A program made the position numbers and the translations under genes. A stretch of DNA of 64,000 nucleotides from Methylotenera sp. (GTDB lineage Bacteria; Pseudomonadota; Gammaproteobacteria; Burkholderiales; Methylophilaceae), in assembly GCF_030684185.1 (NCBI RefSeq), contig NZ_JAUXOY010000014.1:342001-406000 (forward strand). Reading direction: 5' to 3'. The notes under the pieces were generated by a model. The model saw only the letters and a list, made by a program, of their open reading frames with translations, searched no databases and was not told where the DNA came from. This document shows, piece after piece, positions 30,551 through 36,737 of the stretch. Position 1 is the stretch's first letter. Every line of letters begins with the position of its first letter.

Positions 30551-30988
30551 TTATTTCGTTTTAACTGACTGAATAACCTTTTCAGTTAACTCTTTCAACT
30601 GCTCTGGTGCAAGGGCACCGCTTACTCGACCAAGCTCTTTACCCTTCCAAAAATAGGCGAGCGTAGGGATTGATCTGATGTTGTATTTAGTACCTAACAT
30701 CTGCTCAGCCTCCGTATCCACTTTGGCATAAATCACTTGGTTAACAAACTTTGCTGCGCTTGCTTTAAATGTAGGCGCAAACATTTTGCAGGGGCCGCAC
30801 CAAGGTGCCCAAAAATCAATAATCACTGGCAAAATATTTTGTGACAGCACTTCATTGATGTTCGTTTGATTAAGCACTATTGGCTCGGACAATAAACTCT
30901 TACGGCAAGCGCCACAGATTGGATTCGCTCCAACCTTCTCAATAGGAAAACGATTTTCTTTTCCACAGTGTGGGCACTTAATTTGCAT
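30551..30988 (-). CDS. trxC: Thioredoxin 2 with zinc-ribbon N-terminus
   Basis: Cytoplasmic disulfide reductase of 145 residues. Two CxxC pairs at the N-terminus (CPHCGKENR and CGACRKS) form the zinc ribbon typical of TrxC. The thioredoxin active site FWAPWCGPCKMFAP is near residue 65, followed by the cis-Pro segment IRSIPTLAYFWKG. It starts 2 bases after the pqqC stop and is the last gene of a run downstream of the FisR-like regulator. In that setting a role in persulfide or disulfide reduction is plausible. Confidence 0.94.
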   Translation of the reverse strand: MQIKCPHCGKENRFPIEKVGANPICGACRKSLLSEPIVLNQTNINEVLSQNILPVIIDFWAPWCGPCKMFAPTFKASAAKFVNQVIYAKVDTEAEQMLGTKYNIRSIPTLAYFWKGKELGRVSGALAPEQLKELTEKVIQSVKTK

Positions 30989-30990
30989 AA

Positions 30991-31740
30991 TTACTTCATT
31001 TGATCCTGTCGTAAATAATGTACGCCATTTTCGATGCTGACATCACAGCAGGCCAACATAATAGAATCTGAGATGACCCAAAGTACATTGAGTTTAAACT
31101 GCAGAATTTCAAGAGCCCTTTCCTGCATTTCTCGTGATTTCCCAAAGTGGCTTAATGTCACAGCTAAACCTTGTTCTACGTCACGACGTGCTTCTGTCAG
31201 TCTTTTCTTAAAATAGATCATGCCTTCTTCTTTGACCCAAGGATACATCTCGGGCCAGGAACTTATGCGTTGCTGGTGAATATGTGGCGCAAATAGTTCA
31301 GTGAGTGAGGAGCATACTGACTCTTGCCAGGGGCGCTGACGTGCAAAATTGATGTAGGCATCGACAGCAAAACGTACGCCAGGGCTAACAAATTTAAGTG
31401 AAGTTACATCTTCACGGGTGAGACCTACAGCCTCGCCAAGTTTAATCCACGCTTCGATACCACCTTCTGCTTTATCATCTCCGTCATGGTCGGTAATGCG
31501 TAATATCCAGCTACGACGAATTTCTCTATCGGGGCAGTTGGACATGATGGCAGCATCTTTCTGCGGGATGCCAATCTGATAATAGAATCTGTTAGCGACC
31601 CAACACTGCAATTGTTCTCGTGTCAGCTTACCTTCATACATTAATACGTTAAATGGGTGATGGCTGTGATAGCCTTTTCCTTTTTCACGTAACTTGTTCT
31701 CAAATTCCTCACGTGTCCATGGTGTTAGTACTGCTGTCAT
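30991..31740 (-). CDS. pqqC: Pyrroloquinoline-quinone synthase
   Basis: Catalyses the final ring closure and oxidation in PQQ biosynthesis, making the cofactor of methanol dehydrogenases. The 249 residues match PqqC throughout: [75 protein letters not shown] and [15 protein letters not shown]. The tail after [10 protein letters not shown] is longer than usual and contains two adjacent Cys. No pqqA, B, D or E is adjacent. The gene instead sits between a persulfide-reductase-like gene and trxC. Confidence 0.93.
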
Positions 31741-31801: not shown

Positions 31802-33532
31802 TCATGAACAATTAGCAGCTATAGCTTGCTCTGCAAGTTGTTCTTCAGCATGTGCCACAAAGGGAATCCCTGGTCTGCCAGTGCAAAGTGGCGTGCGATG
31901 GAAGCTACAGAAAGTCTTGGAACCGCCAGCTAAAGTTTTAACTTGATTGAATCCTGACTGAACCAGAATCCGGTAAGCTAAGTAACTGCGGAATCCAACA
32001 CGGCAATAAAGAAATATTGGTTTATCCTTCGGTAGTGAATCTAGTTGAGTCCGCAGTTGCCCCAAAGGGGTATTAATTGCACCCGGAATATGCCAAGTTT
32101 TAAATTCATTCGCACTGCGTACGTCAATCGTGAGCCCATTTTCCATTGCTGCAGGATAATCCTCGGCATACCAGAAATTGACATCTCCTTTTAATAAATT
32201 AGCTGCCACAAATCCTGCCATATTGACTGGATCTTTAGCTGAACCATAGGGAGGAGCGTAAGCCAATTCCAGCTCCTCCAAATCATAAACTGTCAGCCCT
32301 GCACGAATAGCTGTAGCAAATATGTCGATTCGTTTATCCACACCATCGTAGCCCACGACTTGTGCACCTAGAATCTTCCCATCGCCTGGTGCAAATAGAA
32401 GTTTGATATGCATCGAGGTTGAGCCTGGGTAATAACTCGCATGCCCTGATGGATGGATATACACTTTGTGATATGGCAATTTATTGCTTTTTAAGAGCTT
32501 TTCAGATGCCCCTGTAACTCCACCTGTCATCTCAAACACTTTAACTATGGCAGTGCCTTGCGTAGAAGAATAGGCACTTTTTCTTCCTAGAATGTGTTCG
32601 GCAACGATTCTTCCTTGTCGGTTAGCAGGCCCAGCAAGCGCAATCAATGACTGAGCACCTGTAATTGTATCCATCACCTCAACCACATCACCAGCCGCAT
32701 AAATATTGGGGTCAGAAGTTTGCATGTGCGCGTTTACCTCAATGCCGCCAAGAGGTCCGAGGGTGATGCCTGCTTGGCGAGCCAAATGAGCATCTGGGCG
32801 CACACCCACAGCCAGCAGTACAATATCTGCTAATAAGATTGTGCCGTCTTGCAGGGTAACGTGAACATTCCCATTTTCATCATCAAAGCTGACTGCGGCA
32901 GTTCCGAGCTTTAACTGAACACTGTGATATTCAAGGTGGTACTGAAGATCGCGCGCCATTTCTTGATCTAAAGGTGGCATGATTTGGTCAGCAAGTTCTA
33001 CAAGTGTTACAGCTACACCCCTGTTTCGTAAACTTTCAGCCATCTCAACACCTATATAGCCACCGCCAACGACGACAGCATGCAGAATGCCTTGATCAAC
33101 AATCGCTTTAATGACGTCCATGTCTTCGATGTTGCGAAGGGTAAATATACGCGGATGATTAATACCTGGAAGTTTTGGCCTAATTGGACTTGCACCTGGG
33201 CAAAGCACCAACTTGTCGTATGCCTCATGGTATGGCTCACCAGTCATTAAGTCTTTAATCGTGATGGTTTGCTTACTGCGATCAATAGAAATAACTTCGT
33301 GTCCGGTTCGAACGTCGAGGTTCAGGTTTTCTGCTAAGGTTTGTGGAGTTTGAAGTAACAATTGGTCGCGATCTTTAATATCACCGCCAATATGGTAGGG
33401 CAAGCCGCAGTTTGCAAAAGAAACATACTGGCTTCGTTCCAATACTACAATCTCTGCTTTTTCGCTAAGCCTGCGTGCGCGTGCTGCTGCAGACATCCCG
33501 GCAGCCACTCCGCCAACAATAACTATTTTCAT
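31802..33532 (-). CDS. CoA-disulfide/persulfide reductase with C-terminal rhodanese domain
   Basis: Flavoprotein of 576 residues (start ATG 33532). The FAD domain begins IVIVGGVAAGMSAAARARRL. The active-site Cys lies in SFANCGLPYH at about residue 42, as in CoA-disulfide reductases. The NAD(P)H domain has VVVGGGYIGVEMAESL, and AAGDVVEVMD follows. The C-terminal rhodanese domain has its catalytic loop LYCRVGFRSY at about residue 510. This architecture matches the CoADR-RHD/Npsr enzymes that reduce CoA- or other persulfides with NADH. It lies 142 bases downstream of the FisR-like regulator in the same direction. Confidence 0.88.
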   Translation of the reverse strand: MKIVIVGGVAAGMSAAARARRLSEKAEIVVLERSQYVSFANCGLPYHIGGDIKDRDQLLLQTPQTLAENLNLDVRTGHEVISIDRSKQTITIKDLMTGEPYHEAYDKLVLCPGASPIRPKLPGINHPRIFTLRNIEDMDVIKAIVDQGILHAVVVGGGYIGVEMAESLRNRGVAVTLVELADQIMPPLDQEMARDLQYHLEYHSVQLKLGTAAVSFDDENGNVHVTLQDGTILLADIVLLAVGVRPDAHLARQAGITLGPLGGIEVNAHMQTSDPNIYAAGDVVEVMDTITGAQSLIALAGPANRQGRIVAEHILGRKSAYSSTQGTAIVKVFEMTGGVTGASEKLLKSNKLPYHKVYIHPSGHASYYPGSTSMHIKLLFAPGDGKILGAQVVGYDGVDKRIDIFATAIRAGLTVYDLEELELAYAPPYGSAKDPVNMAGFVAANLLKGDVNFWYAEDYPAAMENGLTIDVRSANEFKTWHIPGAINTPLGQLRTQLDSLPKDKPIFLYCRVGFRSYLAYRILVQSGFNQVKTLAGGSKTFCSFHRTPLCTGRPGIPFVAHAEEQLAEQAIAANCS

Positions 33533-33674
33533 GTTCGATACCAACTTATACGAAAAATTAAGCCTAAGTATACGTCAATAAACTATTAACTGTATAGCTA
33601 TATAGTTATATGTTTAATAATTTATTGGCTATAGGCTCAATTCTTTGAAATAGCCGCATTAGATGAATGGAAAC

Positions 33675-34967
33675 TTATATTTGAAGCTTGCGATACAAGG
33701 TGCGCTCACTAATGCCAAGCGTTTTAGCGAGTGCACGTCGGTCTCCCTTATGTTGCGAAACAGCCCATTGCAAATAGTGTTGTTCAGCTTGTTCCAGCGG
33801 GATAATAGCTTGCGACATGACATTCTCTGACTGCTTGGGCTCCTTGTAGTCTAAGGCTAGATGCTCAGGCATGATGATGTCACTATTAGCCATCAAGCTT
33901 GCACGTTCAAGAATGTTACGCAGTTCGCGGATATTGCCCGGAAAATCACATGCCTCAAGTTGAGCCAGAGCATCTGAATGTAGATTAAGTTTACGCTCAG
34001 GACTGATACGTGCGAGCAATGTTGCTGATAATAGTGGAATGTCTTCGCGACGCTGTGAGAGTGAAGGTAAGTGAATTGGAAAGGTGCTGATACGATAATA
34101 CAAATCTTTGCGGAAACTTTCTTGTTTTACCATCTGTTTTAAATCGCGATGTGTAGCGGACACCAACCGAAAATCCGCTCTCAATGGATCAACACCTCCA
34201 ACTCGGCGATAGGTTCCAGTTTCAAGTAAACGTAATAGTTTCACCTGCAAACTAAGAGGGATATCGCCCACCTCATCTAGAAATAATGTGCCGCCACTAG
34301 CACTTTCTACCAGGCCATGCTTGCGTTGAGTAGCGCCTGTGAATGCGCCTTTTTCATAGCCAAATAATTCACTCTCAAATAGAGTTTCTGTTAAACCAGA
34401 GCAATCCACCGCCACAAAGGGCTCGTTTGCTCGTTTACTCGCATTATGAACTGCCTGCGCGACGAGCTCTTTGCCAGTGCCGGATTCACCGAGTAGTAAA
34501 ACAGATGCCTCAGATGGAGCTACCCGTTCTATTAAACCCAGCATATTATTAAACACCGCTGAGCGCCCGACTAAACCGCGCGAGGATGGGTGAGTACTAG
34601 CGTCGCGGATAGTCTGTATCATTTCCACGAAATAGACGATTTCGCCGCTACTGTTATGAATAGGTGTTAATTCAACATCAACATGCTCTTCACCGCGTGG
34701 AGTTTGATGCAGGTGCAGCACGCGCTGAGAGCGGCCTGTGCTAGCACTGAGTTTAAGTGGACATGACTCCCCGACTTCATCGCATGGACGGTCAAAATGA
34801 TGAGACACTTCGTAGCAATGTCGCCCTACTAAAGGTACTGAATTGCCATATTCGCTATGATAAGCTGCATTAGCAGCAATGATGATGTAATTCTTGTCCA
34901 TCACAATGCGAGGTTCTGGCTGGCTGTCTAAATAAGACAGGAGTTCGGATATTTGAGAAGCGTCCAT
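33675..34967 (-). CDS. FisR-like sigma54-dependent activator with a three-cysteine PAS sensor
   Basis: Protein of 430 residues. An N-terminal PAS-like domain (about 15-125) carries Cys51, Cys62 and Cys69 in HCYEVSH, RPCDEVG and SCPL. The 11- and 7-residue spacing is that of the sulfane-sulfur-sensing cysteines reported for FisR (Cys53, Cys64, Cys71). The AAA+ domain has Walker [12 protein letters not shown], the sigma54-contact loop GAFTGA and Walker [12 protein letters not shown]. The C-terminus is a Fis-type helix-turn-helix ([19 protein letters not shown]). Its neighbours (persulfide reductase, thioredoxin) agree with a reactive-sulfur signal. Two palindromic sites lie just upstream of its start and may also mediate autoregulation. 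Confidence 0.88.
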
Positions 34968-34985: not shown

Positions 34986-34999
34986 TGCCAAATATGGCA
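34986..34999. promoter_or_regulatory. Palindromic upstream activator site 1
   Basis: Perfect palindrome TGCCAAATATGGCA, 19 bases upstream of the FisR-like start codon. A related inverted copy lies 41 bases away centre to centre. Suits dimer binding by the Fis-type activator. The assignment to this regulator is inferred. Confidence 0.6.
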
Positions 35000-35026: not shown

Positions 35027-35040
35027 CGCCATATTTGACA
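35027..35040. promoter_or_regulatory. Palindromic upstream activator site 2
   Basis: CGCCATATTTGACA, whose reverse complement TGTCAAATATGGCG differs from site 1 in two of 14 positions. The centre is 41 bases from site 1, close to four helical turns, and about 106 bases before the -24 element, a typical enhancer distance for sigma54 promoters. Confidence 0.6.
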
Positions 35041-35139: not shown

Positions 35140-35155
35140 TGGCACAATTAATGCA
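35140..35155 (+). promoter_or_regulatory. Sigma54 (-24/-12) promoter directed at ccoG
   Basis: TGGCACAATTAATGCA matches the sigma54 consensus TGGCACRNNNNTTGCW at every defined position except one T. The invariant GG and GC are correctly spaced. The start point would fall near 35167, leaving a leader of about 100 bases that contains a perfect palindrome AACATTAATAATGTT (35171-35185). Confidence 0.75.
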
Positions 35156-35267: not shown

Positions 35268-36737
35268 ATGAACGAAACGCCTGTGAACAATACAGCAGAA
35301 AAATCAACGCCGGTGAATGAAGTTGTAATTTCACTATATGCAGCTCAAGACAAGGTCTATCCTCGAAGCACATTTGGATTTTTCACCAAATGGCGCTGGG
35401 CAATGATATGGCTAACTCAGATAGTTTTTTATGGCATCCCTTGGCTGGAGTGGGGACATCGTCAGGCTTTATTATTTGATTTAGGTGCAAGGCGCTTTTA
35501 TATCTTCAACCTAGTACTGTACCCGCAAGATTTGATTTACCTCACCGCCATTCTAATCATTTCCGCGCTATCGCTATTCTTATTTACCGCAATCGCCGGG
35601 CGTTTATGGTGCGGTTATACCTGCCCTCAAACCGTTTATACGGAAATATTCTTATGGATTGAGCATAAAATCGAGGGTGAACGCGGTGCACGAATGAAGC
35701 TTGATTCTGCAGGTATGTCCACCAATAAATTAGCTAAAAAGGGTGCTAAACATTTTATATGGATTGCATTTGCCTTGTGGACCGGCTTTACTTTTGTTGG
35801 ATATTTCACCCCGATCCGTGAACTTAGTCAATCAGTATTGAGCATGAGCCTGGGGCCATGGGAAACTTTCTGGGTATGTTTTTATGGCTTTGCAACTTAT
35901 GGTAATGCTGGTTTTATGCGTGAACAAGTCTGCAAATATATGTGCCCTTATGCCCGCTTTCAAAGCGCGATGTTTGATGATGACACTTTAATCGTGACTT
36001 ACGATGAGGCTCGCGGTGAACCACGCGGGCCTCGTTCACGTAAGGATGAAGCAAAGTCCAAAGAATTAGGTTCTTGTATCGATTGCGGTTTGTGCGTCCA
36101 AGTATGCCCAACAGGGATTGATATACGAAAAGGACTGCAATACGAATGTATTGGCTGTGGTGCCTGTGCCGATGTATGTGATACGGTCATGGATAAAGTT
36201 GGCTATGAGCGTGGTTTGGTTAAATACTCAACACAAAATGCTATCAACAATAAATGGTCACATAAACAAATGTTGCAACGTATTATGCGACCACGTGTCT
36301 TAATTTACTCTGCAATTCTGACATTGTTAATTGTGAGCTTGCTGGCAAGCTTGTGGTATCGAACGCCATTTAGAGTGAACGTTATACGTGATCGTGGTGT
36401 GATGGCGCGCTTGACTGATGACGGTATGCTGGAAAATATATACCGTTTACAAATAATGAATGGCACAGAAAAAACTCAACAGTATCAGATCAGCGTCAGC
36501 GGTGTTAAAGATCTAGAAATCAAAGCAGAAGCGGCAAAAGAGAATCATGATAGTAAAGACAAAGAACAGAGTAATACAATTACAGTGAAACCTGCAGAAT
36601 CACGTTGGATTATCGTTGATTTAAAAATTCCTGACGGCTCACTTAAATCCGGCTCTCACAAAATTCATTTTGAAATTCAAGCAGTTGAGAGTAAGCAAAT
36701 TGTGACTGAAAAATCTATATTCTTGGTGCCTAGATAA
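35268..36737 (+). CDS. ccoG: Cytochrome c oxidase accessory protein CcoG (FixG/RdxA)
   Basis: Membrane iron-sulfur protein of 489 residues, reported in other bacteria to reduce Cu(II) for assembly of cbb3 oxidase. Five or six membrane helices are visible. RLWCGYTCPQTVYTE and QVCKYMCPYARFQ lie in the membrane part. The ferredoxin part has CIDCGLCVQVCPTGIDIR and CIGCGACADVC, giving two 4Fe-4S sites. The C-terminal third is an immunoglobulin-like periplasmic domain. No ccoNOP genes are in the window. The upstream sigma54 promoter and palindromic sites suggest control by the divergent FisR-like activator. Confidence 0.93.
   Translation: MNETPVNNTAEKSTPVNEVVISLYAAQDKVYPRSTFGFFTKWRWAMIWLTQIVFYGIPWLEWGHRQALLFDLGARRFYIFNLVLYPQDLIYLTAILIISALSLFLFTAIAGRLWCGYTCPQTVYTEIFLWIEHKIEGERGARMKLDSAGMSTNKLAKKGAKHFIWIAFALWTGFTFVGYFTPIRELSQSVLSMSLGPWETFWVCFYGFATYGNAGFMREQVCKYMCPYARFQSAMFDDDTLIVTYDEARGEPRGPRSRKDEAKSKELGSCIDCGLCVQVCPTGIDIRKGLQYECIGCGACADVCDTVMDKVGYERGLVKYSTQNAINNKWSHKQMLQRIMRPRVLIYSAILTLLIVSLLASLWYRTPFRVNVIRDRGVMARLTDDGMLENIYRLQIMNGTEKTQQYQISVSGVKDLEIKAEAAKENHDSKDKEQSNTITVKPAESRWIIVDLKIPDGSLKSGSHKIHFEIQAVESKQIVTEKSIFLVPR

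Follow-up and report, generated by a model that had tools for sequence, protein, structure and literature searches.

What does a FisR-type regulator control when it lies away from the sulfide oxidation genes? The question is raised by a gene on the reverse strand (33675..34967) of the window analysed here, a stretch of 64,000 nucleotides of Methylotenera DNA. A preliminary description had taken its product for a FisR-like sulfane-sulfur sensor with no sqr or pdo among its neighbours, and had proposed a variant regulon centred on reduction and on cofactor and oxidase maintenance.

The gene encodes a 430-aa product in which Pfam finds PAS_4 (residues 13-122), Sigma54_activat (132-299; 34071..34574, reverse strand), AAA_lid_14 (305-382) and the Fis-type helix-turn-helix HTH_8 (391-429; 33681..33797, reverse strand). 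The PAS-type sensor domain spans residues 1-125 (34593..34967, reverse strand), and the GAFTGA loop of the sigma54-interaction AAA+ domain occupies residues 207-212 (34332-34349). As had been described, the sensor carries Cys51, Cys62 and Cys69 at spacings of 11 and 7, and these cysteines and the GAFTGA loop are all present in the translated ORF. FisR of C. pinatubonensis, the activator of pdo-sqr, has the same domain order, sigma54 type and cysteine spacing. The agreement in spacing with Cupriavidus FisR, asserted earlier, holds with C71 as what we take to be the third sensing cysteine of that protein. Its C53 and C64 are joined by a tetrasulfide according to the available part of PMC8614764, and three conserved cysteines with polysulfide links between them are reported for FisR in that of PMC9774590.

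Family placement was taken from a quick maximum-likelihood tree of 115 rows with SH-aLRT but no bootstrap support, for which the program warned of long branches in some rows; C. pinatubonensis FisR and a locus with a partial fisR gene at a contig end (L102/L145) were left out. Among the first 80 loci, L012-L029 were checked for neighbours, and L035, L047, L051 and L080 for cysteines only. A clade of 101 rows (SH-aLRT 99), which holds the window protein together with the pdo-sqr-linked FisR proteins, is set apart from 14 rows: 11 outgroup sigma54 activators (L030, L033, L038, L043 and L055 among the outgroup loci) and L047, L051 and L080. The window protein thus falls within the FisR clade and is 55% identical over 99% to the pdo-sqr-linked FisR of C. 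metallidurans (L092) in the same clade. Nine pdo-sqr loci, including those of C. metallidurans, Burkholderia and Pseudomonas, form with L017 a subclade of ten rows (SH-aLRT 99), and the pdo loci L231 and L234 are placed elsewhere in the 101-row clade. The window protein lies in an 11-row subclade of its own (SH-aLRT 99) with three congeners and seven regulators that face cydAB (L179-L185). Since this differs from the subclade of the nine pdo-sqr loci, we place it in the FisR family but off the main sulfide-oxidation branch. Judged by its domains, cysteines and place in the tree, the product of 33675-34967 belongs to the FisR family with three cysteines. Facing pdo-sqr is a mark of the best studied FisR loci, not of the wider clade.

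The gene that diverges from the regulator is ccoG (35268..36737, forward strand) instead of pdo-sqr; its product scores 523.8 bits against TIGR02745, above the cut-off of 316.7. The 300-bp gap between the two genes holds two 14-bp inverted repeats, box 1 (34986..34999), an exact match to TGYCA-N4-TGRCA and a probable activator site, and box 2 (35027..35040), which has one mismatch and lies 41 bp from box 1, together with a sigma54-type -24/-12 site facing ccoG (35140..35155, forward strand). In an alignment of the window with three congeners (four species in all), both boxes and the promoter site form three conserved islands in a diverged gap. The box pair arose in 0 of 20000 dinucleotide shuffles of the gap, and a -24/-12 score of 13.5 or better in 33 of 20000. 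Across the whole window, 13 boxes with at most one mismatch compare with 10.6 expected, and 18 promoter matches with at most one mismatch with 14.4 expected; as neither pattern is enriched, the argument depends on where the sites lie and on their conservation. Genome-wide there are 33 exact boxes against 6 in the control; ORFs of at least 80 aa, some perhaps not genes, contain 29 of the 33, and boxes by themselves are not specific. Exact boxes with a sigma54 site of at least 13 within 300 bp occur twice in the genome, which also contains rpoN: at the fisR-ccoG locus and before a glnA-like gene (named by eye), where the sigma54 site is probably an NtrC promoter. The latter was the only further candidate for a FisR target that the exact-box search gave, and was set aside.

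To see how far this arrangement extends, two sets of loci were surveyed, both without L102/L145: a first set of 28, and a second of 73 besides the window's own, from an order-wide search with hits in 55 of 399 genomes (that of the window among them). The 73 loci span 28 genera, within each of which they are non-independent. In the first set the box was found at 19 of 28 loci (shuffle mean 0.36) and a divergent promoter score of at least 13 at nine (shuffle mean 0.76). In the second, a promoter of that score faced the divergent gene at 52 of 73 loci (shuffle mean 1.97, largest 6) and the box was present at 33 (shuffle mean 1.05, largest 5), each in at least one locus of 17 of the 28 genera; of the 400-bp stretches taken as controls, those inside fisR carried the box at one locus and those downstream at none. 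Counting against the explanation that we favour below, 21 of the 73 loci fall short of the promoter score and 40 have no box, and at five ccoG-facing loci of another genus (g97) box and promoter are both absent (0/5). The score was likewise reached on the divergent side at none of the pdo-sqr loci (0/8 in the first set, 0/3 in the second); because these are sigma54-controlled according to the literature, the score must miss true sites or sites of another form.

The divergent partners were named by similarity to reference genes, by a profile or structure-sequence test of a single group member, and for the remaining members by eye from matching N-termini. In the first set they include pdo-sqr (L018-L023, L025, L092) and cydAB (L014-L016, L093, L094), L093 being annotated with cydP, cydB, cydX and a YbgE-type gene. 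In the second set cydAB is the commonest partner (24 of 73 loci, in 12 genera); cydA gave a long match at 23 of these and cydB a match at 23, L179 stopping at a contig end and L191 carrying an internal deletion. The others are SQR or SQR-like proteins (11), ccoG (5), a PhsA-like molybdoenzyme below the PhsA cut-off (4), pdo with or without sqr (3), a TDT transporter (2), an octahaem or multihaem cytochrome (2) and a CcoG-type protein with ferredoxin (2), with 20 of the 73 unnamed. In two species of the window's family (L143:7002-8357 and L144:8115-9470) the gene that diverges from the FisR-type regulator encodes an SBP56-type methanethiol oxidase, and a sigma54 site scoring 14 lies between the two. 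Genomes of group g96 have up to four FisR-family paralogues (in G558, for example, L186, L208, L213 and L240), whose divergent partners vary from the molybdoenzyme, an SQR-like protein and cydAB to others unnamed.

How ccoG came to face this regulator is suggested by its relatives. The window genome has two ccoG genes, 79% identical, one of them after ccoNOP (ccoN named by TIGR00780, ccoO and ccoP by eye) and the other in the window. The window CcoG is of the CcoG/RdxA/FixG family, and differs in being an additional copy that is separate from ccoNOP and lies opposite a FisR-type regulator. The ccoNOP-ccoG operon lies on contig C10 (L254:4365-12660) beside genes for an NtrC-type response regulator-like and a histidine kinase-like protein. 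Its own ccoG was considered as a FisR target and rejected, the 17-kb stretch around it containing no exact box and five one-mismatch boxes against 2.8 expected. In the closest congener (L139) fisR faces ccoG followed by cydAB, and in two others (L140, L141) it faces ccoG as in the window. No cydA match was found in the window genome at E<=0.001; six of eight relatives tested gave one, in one of the six only as a remnant. This remnant, in congener G145 (L141:12584-12767), consists of the first 39 cydA codons after ccoG and then, out of frame, the last 26 cydB codons; the small gene that ends the operon of G144 (DUF202-type by eye) lies about 0.9 kb beyond it in G145, and the remnant may be an assembly error. 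A comparable fusion lies at L191 (genome G349), between 613 and 1636 bases upstream of where the regulator gene starts; there the first 82 cydA codons run into cydB from codon 22 as a single open frame of 420 aa, with most of cydA missing. For the window and G145 it is simplest to suppose that a ccoG-cydAB operon, putatively under FisR, has been reduced to ccoG. The window ccoG groups with the fisR-linked ccoG of G144 (SH-aLRT 99), and those of G136 and G145 fall elsewhere in the ccoG tree, so that a single fisR-linked ancestor does not account for all the ccoG copies, unless there has been exchange between them.

The observation that sqr and pdo are missing applies to the neighbourhood and not to the genome, where sqr is elsewhere. 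A first impression of a genome without sqr was overturned when two weak matches to Pseudomonas SQR turned out to be ORFs for an SQR (C10:660.8k; nearest solved structure 3sz0, E 1.3e-186) and for the flavin subunit of a flavocytochrome c sulfide dehydrogenase (C10:578.2k; nearest structure 3vrd, E 5.8e-100). No pdo was found in this genome, the sole match being 83 residues at 31% in an ORF that by eye looks like glyoxalase II. Neither sqr nor fccA has a box within its upstream 1.5 kb, whether gaps of 3 to 6 or one mismatch are allowed, or a sigma54 site there of at least 12; weak sigma54 sites (12 and 12.5) lie inside a gene further upstream of sqr, which may be part of a longer operon. A row of three genes on the same contig (L286:4686-7045) comprises one for a rhodanese, one that by eye probably encodes a haem protein, and sqr.

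The explanation that we favour, at slightly better than even chances, is that this FisR-family regulator responds to a sulfane-sulfur signal by sigma54 activation of the second ccoG, in a lineage in which it formerly acted on cydAB. Sulfane sulfur, of which the genome's SQR and FccAB could be the makers, would modify the cysteines of the PAS-type sensor as in Cupriavidus FisR, and the AAA+ activator, bound at the two inverted repeats, would act on sigma54-RNA polymerase at 35140 to turn ccoG on. CcoG is a cupric reductase and cbb3 assembly factor (PMC7558416, in part), and extra CcoG would supply Cu(I) to the haem-copper oxidase when sulfide poisons respiration, and so sustain the use of oxygen during sulfide or polysulfide stress. 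Earlier, the lineage would have controlled cytochrome bd (cydAB), a quinol oxidase described as sulfide-resistant (PMC8148161, in part); a within-genus ancestor would have had ccoG between the regulator and cydAB, from which the window genome lost cydAB and kept ccoG. At the level of sequence this explanation draws on the domains and cysteines, the clade, the boxes, the promoter and their conservation, the partnership of the nearest relatives with cydAB and the absence of cydA; we infer the signal, box binding by the activator, the advantage gained and the succession of evolutionary steps.

The same wiring from regulator to ccoG could also serve another signal, if three cysteines and three histidines made the sensor a metal or cofactor site reading copper, iron, NO, oxygen or thiol oxidation. 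All 73 order-level relatives, chosen by similarity (E<=1e-110), have the three cysteines aligned, in keeping with the sensor assignment made at the outset, and C-x10-C-x6-C[PS] is matched by 100 of 104 non-outgroup tree rows. When four odd rows (L029, L047, L051, L080) are omitted beforehand, His56, His85 and His87 are as invariant as Cys51, Cys62 and Cys69, each being identical in 100 of 100 family rows, as are N33, S55, P61, G66, E67, P70 and E115 (the GAFTGA loop is exact in 81 of the 100). These histidines beside the cysteines (34706-34817, reverse strand) hint at a metal or cofactor site, and we found no mention of them in a limited search of the FisR literature, as far as its available text goes; a metal centre is possible on this pattern. 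A model of residues 1-127 (mean pLDDT 87.3) has PAS and LOV domains as its best PDB matches, among them cofactor-binding relatives such as NifL, and ccoG and cydAB would be equally suitable targets under copper, oxygen or NO stress. Nor is FisR kinship alone proof of cysteine sensing, since A. baumannii FisR lacks the regulatory cysteines and is yet needed for sulfide induction (PMC7315123, in part). However, other members of the family often partner sulfur genes (SQR or SQR-like, pdo-sqr, PhsA-like molybdoenzyme, mtoX), and the polysulfide links reviewed for the Cupriavidus cysteines (PMC9774590, PMC8614764, each in part) speak against a different signal, which we consider unlikely but worth keeping in mind.

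We give much less credence to the regulon first proposed, in which fisR would drive the downstream genes, with or without ccoG, as a programme of reduction and cofactor supply. Those neighbours were correctly named, as Pfam and TIGR profiles confirm: on the reverse strand follow a CoA-persulfide-reductase-like protein with a rhodanese domain (31802..33544), pqqC (30991..31740; TIGR02111 335.6 bits, cut-off 240) and trxC, a thioredoxin with an N-terminal zinc ribbon (30551..30988; Zn_ribbon_Thio2 and thioredoxin domains). The reductase-rhodanese falls below the cut-off of TIGR03385 for CoA-disulfide reductase (493.1 against 578.8 bits) and matches the two-domain structures 3nta (E 2.8e-177) and 8a56, a CoA-persulfide reductase (E 3.5e-151). 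The genes share strand and order, may be co-transcribed with fisR, and as persulfide reductase and thioredoxin would suit the removal of sulfane sulfur; ccoG, the reductase and trxC are neighbours in G137 too. Yet in the 130 bp that separate fisR from the reductase gene there is no exact or one-mismatch box and no -24/-12 match, the reductase-rhodanese occurs in two of the 52 genomes of the genus, and near fisR in congeners trxC is found at L140, L141 and L145, pqqC at L141 and L145, and neither at L139. The oxidase-maintenance part of the proposed regulon therefore keeps its basis in ccoG with its boxes and promoter, whereas the reduction and cofactor part, with its motif-free gap and patchy genes, does not, and the sequence evidence points to the divergent ccoG, and not to the reductase, pqqC or trxC, as the probable target. 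Boxes, promoter and the tie to cydAB had gone unremarked in the preliminary description. The other genome with the reductase-rhodanese, G137, is outside the set in which fisR was matched at E<=1e-100; its ccoG, truncated at the end of the contig, directly faces the reductase-rhodanese gene with no fisR in between, and trxC comes next (L252:1-3127). In the window an AT-rich dyad with 26-nt arms, 81% complementary, lies upstream of the reductase-rhodanese gene (33576-33627) and may be an operator for another regulator. It is also conceivable, if a shade more improbable again, that regulator and second ccoG are a relic with little function left after the loss of cydAB: cydA is gone from the window genome and a remnant in G145, fisR is matched in five of the 52 genomes at E<=1e-100, and another ccoG is present. 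Against decay stand the open frames, the retained signature residues, and boxes and promoter kept in four aligned species while the rest of the gap diverged.

Set beside known systems, the window regulator resembles A. baumannii FisR in being a sigma54 activator that diverges from its target operon, and differs in having the cysteines and in facing ccoG, the A. baumannii protein controlling pdo1-sqr-tauE (PMC7315123, in part; a likeness by description only). The cydAB-facing regulators of the same clade (L180-L185, L014-L016, L093) share its domains and cysteines and in many cases have a box and a sigma54 site before the divergent gene, but their target would be cytochrome bd, not ccoG; a limited literature search returned no reported function for them. 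Induction of cydAB by sulfide is described in A. baumannii, E. coli and M. tuberculosis (PMC7315123, in part), and a limited search of available text found no sulfur sensor tied to a cydAB promoter. A partial search of open-licence literature gave no paper in which cydAB, ccoG or mtoX is linked to FisR or to a sigma54 activator; the main text of a sigma54 regulon survey (PMC12316311) mentions neither cydA nor ccoG nor cytochrome, and a thiocyanate-linked Fis regulator is described, in the available part of PMC5744179, as part of a two-component system.

A FisR variant with a probable respiratory target opens a hypothesis for the whole family. A conserved module of regulator, box and promoter facing cydAB or ccoG would directly link a sulfur sensor to respiratory rewiring, the 14-bp box could be used for mapping FisR-type regulons in other species, and the three invariant histidines are candidates for testing beside the three cysteines. 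In a broader reading, which we offer tentatively and rate at somewhat under even chances, three-cysteine FisR would be largely a respiratory sulfide-stress switch in beta- and some gammaproteobacteria, and not only a regulator of sulfide oxidation: it would turn on cytochrome bd or, after the loss of bd, a spare CcoG that helps in rebuilding the poisoned haem-copper oxidase, through an invariant Cys3-His3 PAS centre that may hold a metal.
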